64,000 nucleotides of DNA from Halorussus salinus. GTDB lineage: Archaea > Halobacteriota > Halobacteria > Halobacteriales > Haladaptataceae. Below the pieces are notes generated by a model, which saw only the letters and a program-made list of their open reading frames with translations, made no database searches and was not told where the DNA came from. A program made the translations under genes and the position numbers. Numbering within the stretch: the first letter of the stretch is position 1; each line of letters begins with the position of its first letter. Of the stretch, positions 43,965 through 52,754 are shown in pieces. The DNA is taken from NCBI RefSeq assembly GCF_004765815.2, contig NZ_ML974129.1:124001-188000 (forward strand), written 5' to 3'.

Positions 43965-44789
43965 TCAGAACGCGCCGAGACTCGACTGGAGCTGTCGCTC
44001 GCTCTCGTCGTCGCCGACCTCGTAGCCGACCAGATTCCGCAGGTCCACCGCGTAGGTCGTCCCGCCCCGAGCGAGGACCAGCACGCGGCCCTGCACGCCG
44101 ACGATTTCGCCGGTGGCCATCGTCTCGGCGACCGGTCGGGCCGAGAGGTCCAGTCCGTAGTCGAACTCGAACGTCTCGGCCGGGTCGAACTCCGCGAGGG
44201 CGTCGCGCCACGCCGCCTCGTCCACCGCCCTGTGAAGCCCCGAAATCTTGTCGGGGACGCGCACGCGGTCGGTGAACTCGTCGGCCAACTGGGACTCGAT
44301 TTCGCGGGCGATGCGGCCGTTTTCGACGGTCCGGAGGAGTGCCGCGCGGTCGGCACCCTGCTCGCGCAGACGCGTGGGGAGTCGCCACGCCTTGGTCACG
44401 CCGACCTTGAACGTCGCGGGCGCGAACGCCGCCAGATAGATGGCGTGGTCGTCGTAGCAGTCCATCTCGTCTTTGAGACAGCTTCCGGTACACCGCGCGC
44501 AGACCCACGTGCTGGTGTGCTGGTCGCAGTAGGGCGCGGCCGCGTTCGCACAGTCGTAGTGGGTCGAACCGTCGAGCGCGCCCGCACACCGACGGTCGCC
44601 GAGCGCGTAGCCGAGTTCGCGGCCGGGGTCGAGTCGCTCGCGGTGAACGCCGTCGGCGTCGGCGAGGAGCAACGCGGCGCGCGTGGGCCGTTCGTCCGCT
44701 CCGGTCTCGCCGCTCGCGGTGGAGGAGTCGGCCTCGTCGCTCTCGCCTGCACTCGCCGCGCGCTCCGTGTCGTAACCGACGATTTGCAC
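43965..44789 (-). CDS. DUF2797-family zinc-finger protein
   Basis: 274 residues. The centre has 'CAGALDGSTHYDCANAAAPYCDQHTSTWVCARCTGSCLKDEMDC', a dense Cys/His cluster that surely binds zinc, followed by 'HAIYLAAFAPATFKVGVTKAWRLPTRLREQGAD', the family core. The C-terminal half is a beta-rich region. DUF2797 is archaeal/actinobacterial; function unknown, perhaps nucleic-acid related. A low-complexity Ser/Glu segment (about 10-35) precedes. Confidence 0.8.
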   Translation of the reverse strand: MQIVGYDTERAASAGESDEADSSTASGETGADERPTRAALLLADADGVHRERLDPGRELGYALGDRRCAGALDGSTHYDCANAAAPYCDQHTSTWVCARCTGSCLKDEMDCYDDHAIYLAAFAPATFKVGVTKAWRLPTRLREQGADRAALLRTVENGRIAREIESQLADEFTDRVRVPDKISGLHRAVDEAAWRDALAEFDPAETFEFDYGLDLSARPVAETMATGEIVGVQGRVLVLARGGTTYAVDLRNLVGYEVGDDESERQLQSSLGAF

Positions 44790-44894: not shown

Positions 44895-44900
44895 TCTAGA
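44895..44900 (+). promoter_or_regulatory. TCTAGA motif upstream of subtilase 1
   Basis: TCTAGA, 51 nt before the ATG at 44946, inside an AT-rich promoter. The same motif, or ACTAGA, stands at nearly the same distance before the other four subtilase genes. Confidence 0.45.
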
Positions 44901-44945: not shown

Positions 44946-46142
44946 ATGGTAGCAAATGACAATGGTATGTCTCGGCGTAACGTATTGAAAGGTGTCGGTG
45001 CGTCCGTCGCGACTGCTGGCGTAGCGAGCGGTCTCGCGGCGGCCGACCCGACCGAAAAAGTCGAAGTCAACGTCGGCTTCGCGTCCGAGCGCGGCCGGAA
45101 GGCGGCGCTCAGCCAATCCGACGAGACGGTCCGGAAGTTCGACTCCATCGACGTGCTGACGCTCCGACTGCCCAAGCGGGCGGCGACGGCGCTGGAGAAG
45201 AACCCGAACATCCGGTACGTCGAGGAGAACGGCACGATGGAGGCGCTGGCCCAGACCCTGCCGTGGGGCGTCGACCGCGTGGACGCGGAGGTCGCACACG
45301 CGAACGGCGAGACGGGCAGTGGTGCCGACATCGCTATCATCGACACGGGCATCGACGACGACCACCCCGACCTGCAGGGCAACCTCGGAACCGGGAAGGC
45401 GTTCGTCTCCTGTGGCAACGGCGGCTACTTTGGTAACTGCGGGTATTCGGGCAACAGCAACGCCTGTAACGACCCGTGGTCCGACGACAACGACCACGGC
45501 ACCCACTGTGCCGGTATCGCCGACGCCGTGAACAACAGCGAGGGCGTCAAGGGCGTCTCGACCGAGGCGACGCTCCACGCGGTCAAGGTGCTGGACTGTT
45601 CGGGGAGCGGGTCGTTCTCGGACATCGCGGCGGGTATCGAGTACGTCGCCAACCAAGGCTGGGATGTCGCTTCCCTGAGCCTCGGCGGGAGTTCCGGTTC
45701 GTCGGCGCTCAAGGACGCGGTGGAGTACGCGCAGGGACAGGGCGTCTTGCTGGTCGCGGCCGCGGGCAACGACGGCTCCTGTACCGACTGTGTCGGCTAC
45801 CCCGCCGCCTACGACGAAGTGATGGCGGTCAGTTCGACCAACAGCAACGACGAACTGTCGAGTTTCTCCTCGCAGGGTCCGCAAGTGGAAATCGCCGCGC
45901 CCGGTTCCGACATCTACTCGACGGTGCCCGGCGGCTACGACACGTTCTCGGGCACGTCGATGGCCTGCCCGCACGTCTCGGGCGCTGGCGGACAGCTCAT
46001 GGCCAACGGCGCGAGCAACGGCAACGCTCGCAGTCAGCTGAAGTCCACCGCCGAGAACATCAATCTGGGAAGCAACGAGTCGGGGTCGGGCCTCCTCGAC
46101 GTGGCCGCCGCGCTCGGTCTCGACTCCAGCGACAGCACGTAG
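44946..46142 (+). CDS. Halolysin-like Tat-secreted subtilase 1 (S8)
   Basis: 398 residues. Twin-arginine signal 'MSRRNVLKGVGASVATAGVA', an I9-type propeptide (about 38-110, 'KVEVNVGFASERGRKAALSQ') and the catalytic domain. The triad is Asp133 ('IIDTG'), His184 ('DHGTHCAG') and Ser338 ('GTSMACPH'); oxyanion Asn275 ('AAAGNDG'). Unlike classical halolysins such as R4, there is no C-terminal extension; the protein stops after 'LLDVAAALG'. Five Cys between the Asp and His and a conserved 'CTDCVGYPAAY' suggest disulfides. First of five tandem paralogues, each with its own promoter. Confidence 0.9.
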   Translation: MVANDNGMSRRNVLKGVGASVATAGVASGLAAADPTEKVEVNVGFASERGRKAALSQSDETVRKFDSIDVLTLRLPKRAATALEKNPNIRYVEENGTMEALAQTLPWGVDRVDAEVAHANGETGSGADIAIIDTGIDDDHPDLQGNLGTGKAFVSCGNGGYFGNCGYSGNSNACNDPWSDDNDHGTHCAGIADAVNNSEGVKGVSTEATLHAVKVLDCSGSGSFSDIAAGIEYVANQGWDVASLSLGGSSGSSALKDAVEYAQGQGVLLVAAAGNDGSCTDCVGYPAAYDEVMAVSSTNSNDELSSFSSQGPQVEIAAPGSDIYSTVPGGYDTFSGTSMACPHVSGAGGQLMANGASNGNARSQLKSTAENINLGSNESGSGLLDVAAALGLDSSDST

Positions 46143-46382
46143 CGACTCGGCGACCGTCACGGCTCCTTGTTTTTTCGTACTCGTCCGGTAGCGTCACCGA
46201 GAGTGGAACGCGTCCCGCGTTCGAGGCCGCCCTCCTCGCCTCCGGCGAGACGAGAACTCCCGGCCGGAATCGGCGGGTCGGTCGTCGGTTTCGGTGTTTC
46301 GACGGGCGATCCGGTATTCTGCCGGACGAAAACGCCATAACCGCCGTAATCATATATTTTAGAATTTATTTCTTATTTGAGT

Positions 46383-46388
46383 TCTAGA
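46383..46388 (+). promoter_or_regulatory. TCTAGA motif upstream of subtilase 2
   Basis: Within TTCTAGAA, 42 nt before the ATG at 46425, followed at once by the TATA-like ACTTTATTACC (46390-46400). Confidence 0.5.
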
Positions 46389-46424
46389 AACTTTATTACC
46401 TGCTGTGTGTATTTTACACATGCC

Positions 46425-47618
46425 ATGCGAGGTAAAGACAATGGTATTTCGAGGCGGAACGTCCTCAAGATGGCCGGTGCGTCCGTCGCAACGGCGGCAG
46501 GAAGCGGACTCGCGGCGGCGAAACCCGACGACACCGTCGAGGTCAACGTCGGCTTCGCGTCCGAGAAGGGCCGACAGGTGGCCCTCGGAAAGGCAGACGA
46601 GACGGTCCGGAAGTTCGACTCCATCGACGTGCTGACGCTCCGACTGCCCAAGCGGGCGGCGACGGCGCTGGAGAAGAACCCGAACGTCCGCTACGTCGAG
46701 GAGAACGGCACGATGGAGGCGCTCGCCGAGACCCTGCCGTGGGGCCAACAGCGTATCGACTCCGACGTGGTCTACAGCAACGGCGAACTGGGCGCTGGCG
46801 CGGACGTGGCCATCCTCGACACGGGCATCGACGACGACCACCCCGACCTGACCGACCGGCTCGGTACGGGGAAGGCGTTCGTCAGCTGTAACACCCAAGG
46901 CGGCTGTCGCTTCGGTGCCAAGCCCGCGGACAACACGTGCAACTACTCGTGGACCGACGACAACAACCACGGTACCCACTGCGCCGGAATCGCGGCAGGC
47001 GACGACAACAGTCAGGGCATCGTCGGTGCCGCGCCCGACGCGACGCTCCACGCGGTGAAGGTGCTGGGTAAGTGTGGCAGCGGTTCGTTCTCGGACATCG
47101 CGGCCGGTGTCGAGTACGTCGCCGACCAAGGCTGGGACGTGGCTTCGATGAGCCTCGGGGCCAGTTCCGGTTCGTCGGCGCTCCGCGACGCGGTGCAGTA
47201 CGCGACGAACAACGGCGTCTTCGTCGTCGCGGCCGCGGGTAACGACGGACCGTGTTCCGACTGCGTGGGCTACCCCGCCGCCTACCCCGAAGTCATGGCT
47301 GTGGGTTCGACCGCGAGCGACGACACGCTCTCGGACTTCTCCAGCACGGGGCCGGAAGTCGATATCGCCGCGCCCGGTAGCGACATCTACTCGACGGTCG
47401 CCAACGGCGGGTACGACACCTACTCCGGCACGTCGATGGCGACACCGCACGTCGCGGGCGTCGCGGGTCAACTCGCCGCGAACGGCACGACCGGCAGCGA
47501 CATCCGTTCGACGCTGGCCAACTCCGCGGAGAACATCGGTCTCGCCAGCAACGAGTCGGGTGCCGGTCTGCTCGACGCCGCGGCCGCGCTCGGCTACGAC
47601 TCCAGCGACGACACCTGA
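46425..47618 (+). CDS. Halolysin-like Tat-secreted subtilase 2 (S8)
   Basis: 397 residues from ATG 46425; in-frame sequence further upstream lies in the promoter. Tat signal 'ISRRNVLKMAGASVATAAG'. The propeptide resembles subtilase 1 very closely ('KFDSIDVLTLRLPKRAATAL'). Triad Asp132, His182 ('NHGTHCAG'), Ser337 ('GTSMATPH'); oxyanion Asn273 ('AAAGNDG'). The Cys-rich insertion 'SCNTQGGCRFGAKPADNTC' lies between the Asp and His. It ends after the catalytic domain without PPC or other C-terminal domain. Its closest relative is subtilase 1; tandem duplication is likely. Confidence 0.9.
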   Translation: MRGKDNGISRRNVLKMAGASVATAAGSGLAAAKPDDTVEVNVGFASEKGRQVALGKADETVRKFDSIDVLTLRLPKRAATALEKNPNVRYVEENGTMEALAETLPWGQQRIDSDVVYSNGELGAGADVAILDTGIDDDHPDLTDRLGTGKAFVSCNTQGGCRFGAKPADNTCNYSWTDDNNHGTHCAGIAAGDDNSQGIVGAAPDATLHAVKVLGKCGSGSFSDIAAGVEYVADQGWDVASMSLGASSGSSALRDAVQYATNNGVFVVAAAGNDGPCSDCVGYPAAYPEVMAVGSTASDDTLSDFSSTGPEVDIAAPGSDIYSTVANGGYDTYSGTSMATPHVAGVAGQLAANGTTGSDIRSTLANSAENIGLASNESGAGLLDAAAALGYDSSDDT

Positions 47619-47816
47619 GGGACGGCTCCTCGCGGGCTCGCTTCGAGGAACCGTTCGATTCCTTCTTTCGACTCGGGCCGTCGATTCTTCCGTCCGAGTC
47701 CCGAGTTTCCCACGGACCGACAGGAGACGGCGAGGAGGTCCGAGAAGTGCCGAAGCCCAGTCTGAACTCGTCTCCTTCCGGCTCGCTGGCGCGCCATCGC
47801 CATTATATTTACAGTA

Positions 47817-47828
47817 TCTAGAACTAGA
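47817..47828 (+). promoter_or_regulatory. Double TCTAGA/ACTAGA motif upstream of subtilase 3
   Basis: TCTAGA (47817-47822) directly followed by ACTAGA (47823-47828), 46-52 nt before the ATG at 47869. The TATA-like AACTTTATTAC (about 47833-47843) is nearly identical to that of subtilase 2. Confidence 0.5.
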
Positions 47829-47868
47829 ATAAAACTTTATTACGAGATAGCACCACTAACAAATTGCA

Positions 47869-48999
47869 ATGCTTGGTAACGACAATGGCGTTTCGCGACG
47901 TAGCGTACTGAAAACGGCGGGCGGTTCGCTCGCGGCGATGGGCGCGACCGGCCTCGCGGCGGCCAAGCCCGACGACAAGGTCGAAATCAACGTCGGCTTC
48001 AAGTCCGAGAAGGGCAAGCAGATGGCCCTCTCGCAGGCCAACGATGTCGTCCGGAAGTTCGACTCCCTCGACATCGTGACCATTCAGGCCCCGAAGAAGG
48101 CCGCGACGGCGCTCGACCAGAGCCCGAACATCCGCTTCGTCGAGGAGAACGGCCGGATGCAGGCGCTGGCCCAGACCCTGCCGTGGGGCATCGACCGCGT
48201 GGACGCCGACAACGTGGCCGCCAGCGGTAGCGGTGCCGACGTGGCCATCATCGACACTGGTATCGACGGCAACCACCCCGACCTCGAAGCCAACCTCGGC
48301 GCTGGCGCGCAAGCGGTCGCGTGTAGCTCCTACTCCGCGGAGTGTACCTACAGTTGGGGCGACGACAACGGCCACGGGACCCACTGTGCCGGTACCGCGG
48401 GTGCAGTTGACAACTACGAGGGCGTCGTCGGCGTCGGCGACGGAATCACGCTCCACGCCGTGAAGGTCCTCGGTTCCAGCGGCGGTGGCTCCTACTCGGA
48501 CATCGCGGCGGGTATCGAGTACGTCGCCGACCAAGGCTGGGAGGTCGGTTCGCTCTCGCTCGGTGGCAGCGCGTCCAGTACGGTCCGCAGTGCCGTGCAG
48601 TACGCCGACGACCGCGGCGTCACGCTCGTCGCGGCCGCCGGGAACTCCGGTCCGTGTACCGACTGTGTCGGCTACCCCGCCGCCTACCCCGAGACCATCG
48701 CGGTCTCCTCGACCAACGACTACGACGGCCTGTCGAGTTTCTCCTCGACCGGTCCCGAGGTGGACATCGCCGCGCCCGGTTCCGACATCTACTCGACGTA
48801 CGTCGGCGGCGGCTACCAGACCCTCTCGGGAACCTCGATGGCCTGCCCGCACGTCGCCGGTGCCGCGGGCATCCTGCGCTCGCAGGGCCTCTCGAACGCC
48901 CAGACGAAGAGCCGACTCCTGAACACCGCCGAGAACATCGGTCTGGGCTCCAACGAGTCCGGTGCGGGTCTCCTCGACGTGGAAGCCGCGGTTCAGTAA
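47869..48999 (+). CDS. Halolysin-like Tat-secreted subtilase 3 (S8)
   Basis: 376 residues. Tat signal 'VSRRSVLKTAGGSLAAMG', propeptide 'KVEINVGFKSEKGKQMALSQ'. Triad Asp129, His169 ('GHGTHCAG'), Ser323 ('GTSMACPH'); oxyanion Asn259 ('AAAGNSG'). The Asp-His insertion 'CSSYSAECTYSWGDDNG' is almost identical to that of subtilase 5, so 3 and 5 form one subgroup and 1 and 2 another. No C-terminal extension. Likely degrades proteins outside the cell. Confidence 0.9.
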   Translation: MLGNDNGVSRRSVLKTAGGSLAAMGATGLAAAKPDDKVEINVGFKSEKGKQMALSQANDVVRKFDSLDIVTIQAPKKAATALDQSPNIRFVEENGRMQALAQTLPWGIDRVDADNVAASGSGADVAIIDTGIDGNHPDLEANLGAGAQAVACSSYSAECTYSWGDDNGHGTHCAGTAGAVDNYEGVVGVGDGITLHAVKVLGSSGGGSYSDIAAGIEYVADQGWEVGSLSLGGSASSTVRSAVQYADDRGVTLVAAAGNSGPCTDCVGYPAAYPETIAVSSTNDYDGLSSFSSTGPEVDIAAPGSDIYSTYVGGGYQTLSGTSMACPHVAGAAGILRSQGLSNAQTKSRLLNTAENIGLGSNESGAGLLDVEAAVQ

Positions 49000-49320
49000 A
49001 CCGTCGGGTTCGACGTAGGGACTGCTTCGCCGCGTCGCAGCGAACGCGAGCCACCCTATCGCGTCTCGTCACCCACCCACCCGCTTCCGGTGGCTCGTCA
49101 CCCGCGACCGACTTGCGTTTCGTCATCGGGTTTTCCTCCCGAAGTCGAGCGGTCCCCCGTCGCGGACTCGGATTCTCGCCGGTCTCGGACCACCGGTTCC
49201 GGACCACCACCGTTCCCCGTCCGCCGCGGGTTCCGCTTTGGCGAGTCCGCCCGCCCCGCTTCTTTCGAGTGAGCGACCGAACAGTCGTGGGGTTCGTCCC
49301 AAGGATTTTATTTCATAGAT
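49000..49320. other. Intergenic region between subtilases 3 and 4
   Basis: About 320 bp before the promoter elements of subtilase 4. No convincing gene: open frames are low-complexity Arg/Ser/Pro-rich and lack start signals. The last 30 bp turn AT-rich into the promoter. Direct CTCGTCACCC repeats occur near 49067 and 49094. Confidence 0.5.
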
Positions 49321-49326
49321 TCTAGA
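49321..49326 (+). promoter_or_regulatory. TCTAGA motif upstream of subtilase 4
   Basis: 43 nt before the ATG at 49364, followed by AT-rich ACAAATTTTTGTG (49328-49340), itself a short palindrome. Confidence 0.45.
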
Positions 49327-49363
49327 TACAAATTTTTGTGCTTTAGGCCTGTACTTGCTGACG

Positions 49364-50497
49364 ATGTTCGACGAAGAGACCATCACGCGACGCACCGTTC
49401 TCAAGACGACCGGCGGGTCGCTCCTCGCCGTCGGCGCTGGCGGCCTCGCGGGGGCGTCCCCCGACGAGGAGGTCCGGGTCAACGTCGGGTTCGACTCCGG
49501 CCGCGGTCGGTCGGCGGCGCTCGACGCGGCCGACGAGGTGGTTCGGGAGTTCACCTTCGACGCCGCGACGCTCCGGCTACCCAAGCGGGCGGCCACCGCG
49601 CTCGCCGAACGCGATAGCGTGCGCTACGTCGAGCGCGACGGCACCGCGCGGGCGCTCTCGACCACGTGGGGCTACGACCGCATCGACGCCGACGTGGCAA
49701 ACATCAACGGCTACACCGGTGCGGGTGCCGACGTGGCCGTCATCGACACGGGCCTGCCCTGCGACGACCCCTGCCTGCCGAACGTGGGCAGTGGCAAGGC
49801 GTTCGTGGACTGTTCGAGCGACTGCTGTGCGCCGTGGGACGACGACAACGGCCACGGAACCCAAGTCGCGGGCGTCATCGGTGCCGACGAGTCCTGTAGC
49901 TGTACGACCGGCATCGCACCCGACGCGACGCTCCACGCGGTCAAAGTGCTGAACGACTACGGCGCGGGGTCGTACTCCGACATCGCGGCGGGCGTCGAGT
50001 ACGTCGCCCGGCAGGGCTGGGACGTGGGCAACCTCAGCCTCGGCGGGAGTTCGGGCTCCTCGGTCCTGAAAGACGCCGTGGAGTACGCGACGAACAACGG
50101 CGTCCTGCTGGTCGGCGCGGCGGGCGGGTCGGGTCCCTGCACGAGTTGCGTGGGTTACCCCGCGGCGTATCCGGAAGTCGTCGCGGTCAGCGCGACCAAC
50201 CGGAACGACGAACTCGCCTCCTTCTCCAGTCGCGGCCCCGAAATCGAACTCGCCGCGCCCGGTTCCGACATCACGACCGTCGGCTCGGGCGGATGTGCAA
50301 CTCTCTCGGGCACGTCGTACGCCACGGCCCACGCGTCGGGGGTCGCCGCGCTCGTGATGGCGCAAGGCTACACCAACTCCGGCGCTCGCACCCGACTCCA
50401 GAATACCGCCGAGGACCTCGGTCTGCCGAGCGACGAACAGGGCTCCGGTCTCGTGGACGCCGCGGCCGCGGTCGGACTGAATTCGAGCGACGACTGA
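49364..50497 (+). CDS. Halolysin-like Tat-secreted subtilase 4, oxyanion Asn replaced by Gly
   Basis: 377 residues. Tat signal 'ITRRTVLKTTGGSLLAVGAG'. Triad Asp128 ('VIDTGLP'), His164 ('GHGTQVAG') and Ser318 ('GTSYATAH') are present. The oxyanion-hole Asn of the 'AAAGN' strand is Gly255 here ('GAAGGSGPC'). The segment after the Asp is Cys-rich ('PCDDPC', 'CSSDCC', 'CSCTTG') and diverges from the paralogues. It is therefore the most deviant member: possibly weakly active, inhibitor-like or specialised. It has its own promoter with the shared motif. No C-terminal extension. Confidence 0.88.
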   Translation: MFDEETITRRTVLKTTGGSLLAVGAGGLAGASPDEEVRVNVGFDSGRGRSAALDAADEVVREFTFDAATLRLPKRAATALAERDSVRYVERDGTARALSTTWGYDRIDADVANINGYTGAGADVAVIDTGLPCDDPCLPNVGSGKAFVDCSSDCCAPWDDDNGHGTQVAGVIGADESCSCTTGIAPDATLHAVKVLNDYGAGSYSDIAAGVEYVARQGWDVGNLSLGGSSGSSVLKDAVEYATNNGVLLVGAAGGSGPCTSCVGYPAAYPEVVAVSATNRNDELASFSSRGPEIELAAPGSDITTVGSGGCATLSGTSYATAHASGVAALVMAQGYTNSGARTRLQNTAEDLGLPSDEQGSGLVDAAAAVGLNSSDD

Positions 50498-50528
50498 CGG
50501 CGCTCTATTCAATTTATTAATTAAAATA

Positions 50529-50534
50529 ACTAGA
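50529..50534 (+). promoter_or_regulatory. ACTAGA motif upstream of subtilase 5
   Basis: 43 nt before the ATG at 50572, followed by the TATA-like TTTTTAATAAATA (50540-50552). Confidence 0.45.
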
Positions 50535-50571
50535 TTACATTTTTAATAAATATAGTGTCGAAGATATATCC

Positions 50572-51714
50572 ATGCCATTCGATAACGGCGTTTCCAGACG
50601 AAGCGTGCTTCGAGTGACCGGCGGTTCGCTGGCGGGTCTCGGGGCGAGCGGTCCCGCCGCGGGCGACGCTCCCCAGCGCGTCGAAGTGAACGTCGGGTTC
50701 GCGGGTCAGAGCGGTCGGTCTGCCGCGCTCGGTGCCGCCGACCGTGTGGTCCGGAAGTTCGACTCGCTCGACATCGTGACCGTCGAGGTGCCCGAGCGCG
50801 CCGCCGAGGAGCTAGCCGACCGACCCGACGTGCGCTACGTCGAGGAGAACGGTCGGATGGAGGCGCTCGCTCAGAGCCTGTCGTGGGGCCACGACCGAAT
50901 CGACGCCGAGCGCGCGCACGGTTGCGCGCAGGGCGCTGGCGCGGACGTGGCCATCCTCGACACGGGTATCGACGGCAATCACCCCGACCTCGAAGCCAAC
51001 CTCGGTGCTGGCGGGTACGCCGTCCAGTGTAGCTCCTACTCCGCGGAGTGTACCTACGACTGGGGCGACGACAACGGCCACGGGACCCACTGCGCTGGCA
51101 TCGTCGGCGCGGTGGACAACGGTCGGGGCATCCTCGGCGTCGCGCCGAAGGCGACGCTCCACTCGGTGAAGGTCCTCGGAGCGAACGGCGGCGGGTCGTA
51201 CTCCGACATCGCCTCGGGCATCGAGTACGTCGCCGACCAAGGCTGGGACGTGGCGAACCTGAGCCTCGGCGGGAGCGCGTCCAGCGCGGTCGAAGACGCC
51301 TGCCGATACGCCTACGACAACGGCGTCCTGCTCGTCGCGGCCGCCGGGAACTCCGGCCCCTGTTCGGACTGCGTGGGCTACCCCGCCGCTTACGACGAGT
51401 GCGTCGCGGTGTCGGCGACCACGAGGAGCGACAGTCTGTCGACGTTCTCCTCGACTGGACCGGAGATCGAAATCGCCGCACCGGGGAGCGACATCTACTC
51501 GACGTACGTCGGCGGCGGCTACCGCTCGCTGTCGGGGACTTCGATGGCGGCCCCGCTCGTCAGCGGCGTCGGGGCGCTCCTGATGGGCGACCCGAACAAC
51601 TACTCGAACACGAAGGCCCGGAACATCCTCTGTCAGACGGCCCAGCCCATCGGGCTCTCCGGCAACCAGTCGGGCTGTGGCCTCGTGGACGCCGAAGCGG
51701 CGGCCTGCTACTAG
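50572..51714 (+). CDS. Halolysin-like Tat-secreted subtilase 5 (S8)
   Basis: 380 residues. Tat signal 'VSRRSVLRVTGGSLAGLG', propeptide 'RVEVNVGFAGQSGRSAALGA'. Triad Asp130, His170 ('GHGTHCAG'), Ser324 ('GTSMAAPL'); oxyanion Asn260. The Cys-containing insertion 'CSSYSAECTYDWGDDNG' matches subtilase 3. C-terminal Cys residues ('ILCQTA', 'SGCGLVDAEAAACY') are unique within the array. Followed after 39 nt by the inhibitor-like gene, which has its own TATA-like element. Confidence 0.9.
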   Translation: MPFDNGVSRRSVLRVTGGSLAGLGASGPAAGDAPQRVEVNVGFAGQSGRSAALGAADRVVRKFDSLDIVTVEVPERAAEELADRPDVRYVEENGRMEALAQSLSWGHDRIDAERAHGCAQGAGADVAILDTGIDGNHPDLEANLGAGGYAVQCSSYSAECTYDWGDDNGHGTHCAGIVGAVDNGRGILGVAPKATLHSVKVLGANGGGSYSDIASGIEYVADQGWDVANLSLGGSASSAVEDACRYAYDNGVLLVAAAGNSGPCSDCVGYPAAYDECVAVSATTRSDSLSTFSSTGPEIEIAAPGSDIYSTYVGGGYRSLSGTSMAAPLVSGVGALLMGDPNNYSNTKARNILCQTAQPIGLSGNQSGCGLVDAEAAACY

Positions 51715-51753
51715 CACGAAAAGTTTTCACCACTCCGCGACGCAGTAGAAAGT

Positions 51754-52086
51754 ATGACGCTCCAGAGTTCCGTGGACACGACCGTCGAGTCCGACCGCGT
51801 GGTCTTCGAGTACACCGTCGAGAACGCGAGCGACGCGCCCGAGGAGGTCCAGTTCCGGAGTTCCCTGCTCGCGGACTTCGCCCTCCTCGACGGCGACGAC
51901 GAGGTCTGGCGGGCCAGCGACGGCCAGATGTTCGCCCAGATGATTCAAAACGAGACGTTCGGCGCGGGCGAGACCCGGACGTTCACCGACGAGTGGGACG
52001 ACCCCGACCCCGGCGACTACACCGTCGTCGCCACACTGAACGCGATGGGCGACGACGCCGAGGCCCGGACCGACTTCTCGGTGTGA
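51754..52086 (+). CDS. BsuPI-type intracellular proteinase inhibitor-like protein
   Basis: 110 residues without signal peptide, so cytoplasmic. 'VDTTVESDRVVFEYTVENASDAPEEVQFRSS', 'DGDDEVWRASDGQMFAQMIQNETFGAGETRTFTDEWDDPDPGDYTVVATLNAM' is a single Ig-like beta sandwich as in BsuPI, the inhibitor of the Bacillus intracellular subtilisin ISP-1. A TATA-like AAAAGTTTTC (51719-51728) is 26-35 nt before the ATG. Position right behind five subtilase genes suggests protection against prematurely folded protease, an inference. Confidence 0.75.
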   Translation: MTLQSSVDTTVESDRVVFEYTVENASDAPEEVQFRSSLLADFALLDGDDEVWRASDGQMFAQMIQNETFGAGETRTFTDEWDDPDPGDYTVVATLNAMGDDAEARTDFSV

Positions 52087-52175: not shown

Positions 52176-52754
52176 ATGCAAGGCGAACCCGAAGTGGCGG
52201 TCCTCCGCCTCGGTCACCGGCCGGGCCGCGACGAGCGCATGACGACCCACGTCGGCCTGACCGCGCGGGCGCTGGGGGCCGACCGCGCGATTCTGGCGGG
52301 CGACGCGAGCAAGTCGCAAGGGACCGTCGAGGACATCACCGACCGCTTCGGCGGCCCATTCGACGTGGAGTTGACCGACAGTCCGAAGGCGGTCATCCGC
52401 GACTGGCCGGGGCAGGTCGTTCACCTGACGATGTACGGCGAGCGCGTCCAAGACGTGGAAGACGAGATTCGGGCGGCGCACCGCGGCGCGGACGACGACA
52501 CCGAGGAGGACGCCAGCGAAGGCGACCCGATTCTGGCGGTCGTCGGCTCGCAGAAGGTCTCGTTCGACGTGTACGAGGAGGCCGACTACAACGTCGGCGT
52601 GACCAACCAACCCCACTCGGAGGTCGCCGGACTCGCGGTGTTCTTGGACCGCCTGTTCGAGGGCCGGGAACTGGAACGGGAGTGGAGCGACGCGGACCAG
52701 ACCGTCGTGCCGAAAGCGACCGGGAAGAAAGTGGTTCCGGCGGACGAGGAGTAA
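52176..52754 (+). CDS. trm56: tRNA (cytidine(56)-2'-O)-methyltransferase aTrm56
   Basis: 192 residues. SPOUT methyltransferase that methylates the ribose of C56 in the T-loop of archaeal tRNAs. Begins 'EPEVAVLRLGHRPGRDERMTTHVGLTARALGAD' and has 'VHLTMYGERVQDV' and the knot segment 'DPILAVVGSQKVSFDVYEEADYNVGVTNQPHSEVAGLAVFLDRLFEG'. Full length with an acidic insert near 110. Confidence 0.9.
   Translation: MQGEPEVAVLRLGHRPGRDERMTTHVGLTARALGADRAILAGDASKSQGTVEDITDRFGGPFDVELTDSPKAVIRDWPGQVVHLTMYGERVQDVEDEIRAAHRGADDDTEEDASEGDPILAVVGSQKVSFDVYEEADYNVGVTNQPHSEVAGLAVFLDRLFEGRELEREWSDADQTVVPKATGKKVVPADEE

Follow-up and report, generated by a model that had tools for sequence, protein, structure and literature searches.

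In the window, a stretch of 64,000 nucleotides from a Halorussus salinus genome of 4.75 Mb (contig C3), five genes for subtilases and a single one for BsuPI were identified, all on the + strand. They lie between a divergent DUF2797 gene (43965..44789, - strand), which forms the left edge of the locus in most families, and the gene of Trm56, a tRNA 2'-O-methyltransferase (52176..52754, + strand), the right neighbour that is kept at many BsuPI loci. Trm56 of the window was 87.5 percent identical to that of Halorussus ruber YC25, and TFE and BsuPI were also closest to Halorussus ruber and the same genus group.

Subtilase 1 (44946..46142, + strand, 398 aa) is composed of a Tat signal (SRRNVLK), a prodomain and an S8 catalytic domain. 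Subtilase 2 (46425..47618, + strand, 397 aa) has the same Tat signal, SRRNVLK. Subtilase 3 (47869..48999, + strand, 376 aa, SRRSVLK), subtilase 4 (49364..50497, + strand, 377 aa, TRRTVLK) and subtilase 5 (50572..51714, + strand, 380 aa, SRRSVLR) complete the array. The start codons of copies 2 and 4 were set at ATG 46425 and ATG 49364, and starts one codon later gave the same results. An array of five Tat-signal subtilases had been claimed in the initial annotation, and it was borne out by five uninterrupted ORFs within 7 kb, each with a twin-arginine signal at the N-terminus and a match to the Peptidase_S8 profile (E 1e-45 to 1e-60). The proposed division into subgroups 1,2 and 3,5 with a divergent copy 4 was likewise recovered in the tree, where subtilases 1 and 2 and subtilases 3 and 5 were grouped and copy 4 formed a separate lineage. 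The catalytic triad D/H/S (Asp/His/Ser) was kept in 5/5 subtilases, and the C-terminal extension was absent from all five, with 0-1 aa beyond the S8 profile. The prodomain was weakly detected by profile in copies 1, 2, 3 and 5 (the match in copy 3 being weak), and none was detected by profile in copy 4. In the NCBIfam search of the subtilases, the generic Tat signal was the sole model above cut-off and no subtilase model was matched. A sixth subtilase of the short clade (580 bits) was found elsewhere in the same genome (G000:C1:342101-343210), distant from the sole BsuPI gene.

The oxyanion-hole Asn was present in copies 1, 2, 3 and 5 and replaced by Gly in copy 4, which contains GTSYATAH instead of GTSMAxPH with the triad intact. 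Since the Asn to Gly exchange recurs in related copies of three other genomes (G172, G176 and G274), and Halorussus ruber carries it in its last subtilase (L222 15007-16131), the sequences suggest that the copy 4 type is a conserved lineage of reduced activity, which is probably impaired.

An AT-rich upstream region with a TATA-like sequence was observed at each subtilase, so that an own promoter for each of them is plausible. Within 41-51 nt before the ATG, a CTAGA element, single or double, was present in 5/5 subtilases. It occurred as TCTAGA 50 nt 5' of the ATG of subtilase 1 (44895..44900, CTAGA from 44896), 41 nt 5' of subtilase 2 (46383..46388, CTAGA from 46384) and 42 nt 5' of subtilase 4 (49321..49326, CTAGA from 49322), as the double element TCTAGAACTAGA 45-51 nt 5' of subtilase 3 (47817..47828, CTAGA at 47818 and 47824), and as CTAGA 42 nt 5' of subtilase 5 (50530..50534). 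The window has 29 CTAG sites, about sevenfold fewer than the 195 that its base composition predicts, and neither CTAGA nor TCTAG was found in the other AT-rich stretches of the window. A regulator common to the five subtilases is likely. The promoter elements SPS1-3 of SptA were considered as a counterpart of the CTAGA element and rejected, the sequences being different.

The array is followed by the BsuPI gene (51754..52086, + strand), whose ATG lies 39 nt after the stop of subtilase 5 and which encodes a protein of 110 aa. The initial annotation had placed a cytoplasmic BsuPI-like protein next in line, in agreement with this gap, with the match to PF12690 (E 1.9e-25, 89.2 bits against a curated cut-off of 22.9) and with the signal peptide, of which none was found in the window protein. 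The N-terminus of every haloarchaeal BsuPI inspected was consistent with a cytosolic location. The protein also matched the solved structure of B. subtilis IPI (3isy, E 7.8e-11), and an NCBIfam search with it gave no match. In IPI, residues 62-68 have been proposed as a loop that reaches into the subtilisin cleft, with Gln66 as P1 (PMC3901451). This loop aligned with residues 58-64 of the window protein, where M59, F60 and Q62 of the candidate reactive loop M59-F-A-Q-M-I-Q65 align with M63, F64 and Q66 of IPI. The proposed reactive-loop residues are among the most conserved of the family, F60 being kept in 133/135 and Q62 in 124/135 haloarchaeal BsuPI proteins, while the remaining 11 have Met at the Q62 position. 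Among linked pairs, this Met was seen in six BsuPI proteins, and their partner subtilases make up one S8 clade, to which no other linked BsuPI is paired and which joins genomes of the Haloferax family and Halobacterium; the match is consistent with the two genes having been transferred together, but support in the BsuPI tree is weak at the point that bears on it.

Two fusions of a subtilase with BsuPI were modelled with AlphaFold, and in both the single domains were good, but with a pTM of 0.69 and 0.67 for the fusions no confident dock was obtained. In the first, the TAG stop of subtilase 5, which is in frame with BsuPI and 13 codons apart from it, was read through as a computing device only. 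The second used Halobacterium proteins, a longer linker and 52 sequences, and had the same outcome. The BsuPI part of the models was predicted to consist of strands only.

PF12690 was present in 152/292 haloarchaeal genomes, almost always as a single copy. About 8 kb per side was inspected for 140 BsuPI-containing genomes, in 134 of which BsuPI could be detected with the window protein. A Tat-S8 gene was adjacent or nearly so in 29/134 neighbourhoods, the window being additional, and these belonged to 17 genera and six families. Thus an objection that the initial annotation had allowed for, no linkage elsewhere, fails, and the linkage is more than a chance feature of this one locus. There were 45 S8 genes within 3 kb of BsuPI, all of them (45/45) on the same strand, with 42 upstream and 3 downstream, the latter in G234. 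One to five linked subtilases were counted per locus, and six in Halorussus ruber. The distance from the S8 stop to the BsuPI start was mostly 9-222 nt, with starts estimated.

The usual home of BsuPI consists of DUF2797 and BsuPI, then often Trm56 and TFE, and most linked pairs sit at this single DUF2797-Trm56 locus. Outside this context the pair was found in Halobacterium (G012 and G023; G023 is Halobacterium sp. TGN-42-S1), in Halapricum (G258, Halapricum hydrolyticum) and in two further genomes (G268 and G033), with no other gene in common; in three of these five, BsuPI comes directly after an S8 gene with a long C-terminal extension. Two other genomes of the set are Haloferax marinum (G245), which has a single linked subtilase and a single BsuPI, and Halobium salinum (G259). 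Altogether at least five unrelated genomic contexts of the pair were recognized. By a rough estimate, an S8 gene would be the immediate same-strand upstream neighbour by chance at a rate of 6e-4 per genome. The kinship of the genomes makes formal p-values too small, but even so five contexts are far beyond chance. The reading of a recurrent unit is therefore upheld as regards same-strand linkage, which spans six families and no fewer than five contexts, and it does not hold as a strict pairing, BsuPI being often without a linked subtilase.

In a survey of 2013, the IPI gene was near a subtilisin gene in no completely sequenced species (PMC3901451), a statement that no longer holds. The initial annotation had also called the combination undescribed as a unit, which agrees with the same paper; as far as found in a limited search of the open literature, the linkage is recurrent and undescribed. 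In Tumebacillus lacus, with two BsuPI genes, and Halobacillus sp. A5, with one, no S8 gene of this profile was present within 1.5 kb (L301, L302 and L303). A search of plasmids revealed one BsuPI match, in Natronorubrum bangense, which was already annotated as BsuPI-related.

The short subtilases were distributed according to the presence of BsuPI. At a threshold of at least 550 bits, the S8 subclade occurred in 30/80 BsuPI-containing genomes (21 genera) versus 0/80 BsuPI-lacking genomes with S8 (Fisher 6e-11), a comparison in which the profile was built from 27 linked subtilases, all of BsuPI-containing genomes, and the scores are thus biased toward such genomes. The comparison covered 80 of 87 BsuPI-lacking genomes. 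The top match in a BsuPI-lacking genome reached 526 bits and belonged to an S8 protein with a C-terminal extension. Short subtilases of lower score did exist in BsuPI-lacking genomes, namely in G057 (388 bits, 12 residues past the domain) and G213 (443 bits). BsuPI was absent from 10/12 Haloferax genomes sampled; the pair was present in both genomes that contain BsuPI, and neither gene type was present in the ten that lack it. The same kind of contrast was seen in the genus of G109 and G223 and in Halobacterium. The reverse dependence fails, since many BsuPI-containing genomes are without S8 of the subclade.

We consider the array and BsuPI to be a module of proteases and a cytosolic inhibitor, in which the Tat-exported subtilases would be held in check before export. 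This is the best-supported reading of the sequence comparisons, with a probability of about 0.6. Tat substrates fold before export, and therefore the cell must keep active proteases quiet inside. The short halolysin-like subtilases would fold with their prodomain in the cytoplasm, and part of the pool may mature early, chiefly in late growth or when export is slowed. The 110-aa BsuPI encoded at the end of the array would then plug the active-site cleft of the matured subtilase with its conserved loop (M-F-A/T-Q) and block the cytosolic enzyme reversibly, while the enzyme outside the cell would be free of BsuPI. We infer the binding, the inhibition, the protection of the cell and the identity of the target copies among the five. 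A cytosolic inhibitor would be useful because the halolysin SptA self-activates in the cell, and cells died when its Tat signal was mutated or its export from Haloferax volcanii was blocked (PMC6085418). The recurrent pairing suggests that cells need BsuPI as a catch to make such enzymes. As a counterpoint, the prodomain could already be sufficient as an inhibitor. A further proposal is that one BsuPI disarms several Tat subtilases, that the matched pair moves between families with loop residue and enzyme clade changing together, and that the Halorussus paralogue without the oxyanion Asn would be a non-catalytic control; taken as a whole, this proposal is tentative and somewhat doubtful.

Alternatively, BsuPI may be a general cytosolic inhibitor or quality-control binder, with its main targets elsewhere, such as intracellular S8 proteases or halolysins with a C-terminal extension, and the short subtilases would have spread to genomes or loci that were already protected. 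In accordance with this, most families keep BsuPI at a fixed place flanked by DUF2797 and Trm56, as a rule with no S8 beside it, and more S8 genes were counted in BsuPI-containing genomes (mean 4.5 per genome versus 1.3 in those without BsuPI). Against an exclusive link of BsuPI with the short subtilases, no S8 gene lay within 3 kb of 105/134 BsuPI genes, and at such loci its targets or roles must be different ones. S8 at E<=1e-20 was absent from seven BsuPI-containing genomes (G036, G027, G039, G150, G200, G220 and G249), one of which had no S8 candidate whatever, and some other role or target of BsuPI has to be assumed there. However, the pair recurs outside the home context, which is unexplained by insertion of subtilases beside a fixed gene, and as an account of the pairing a general inhibitor appears unlikely.

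It is less probable still that BsuPI is an Ig-like chaperone or export partner, aiding the folding or Tat delivery of the subtilases without being an inhibitor. Adjacency would suit a secretion helper equally, the domains structurally closest to IPI mediate protein interactions, and the question was left undecided in PMC3901451. The inhibition ascribed to BsuPI, on which the main reading depends, is itself disputed: family I22 was taken out of MEROPS, and the effect is repressed in the presence of casein (PMC3901451). But no exposed stretch of the protein is more conserved than the loop docked into the subtilisin cleft, and nanomolar Ki values have been reported for B. subtilis IPI as an inhibitor of subtilisins (PMC3901451). 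Moreover, BsuPI would not be required for export in general, because related S8 proteins with a C-terminal extension occur in BsuPI-lacking genomes. That the adjacency reflects common ancestry of one locus with tandem duplication of subtilases and no functional link is very improbable: the linked cases are not independent events, because most of them are at the DUF2797-Trm56 locus, but the pair occurs in at least five contexts and always on the same strand, both genes are gained or lost together at genus level, and the short subclade is absent from BsuPI-lacking genomes.

The proposed module of subtilases and inhibitor could be compared with three known systems. Halolysins (SptA, Nep and HlyR4) are, like the array enzymes, haloarchaeal Tat-exported subtilases with a prodomain and an S8 domain, whereas the C-terminal extension of halolysins is absent in the array; an inhibitor partner of halolysins was undescribed in a limited search of the open literature. 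If Haloferax volcanii is among the Haloferax species without BsuPI, it would be a clean host. NSI of the haloarchaeon Natrialba magadii (Gimenez et al. 2003, cited in PMC3403918) similarly inhibits subtilisin-type proteases and is intracellular, and its gene was still without assignment in 2012. BsuPI is a candidate family for NSI, the likeness being one of function; in Natrialba hulunbeirensis a BsuPI gene was present beside DUF2797 (L304). B. subtilis IPI (PF12690, PDB 3ISY) and its target Isp1 resemble the pair in family, in similar length and in the target class S8, and the short form without signal peptide and the loop residues are also shared. In contrast, Isp1 is intracellular and the array subtilases are Tat-exported, and in complete genomes the IPI gene is not near a subtilisin gene (PMC3901451), whereas the two are adjacent here. 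The pairing would be the first known genomic evidence of BsuPI acting on specific subtilases, and it names candidate partners.
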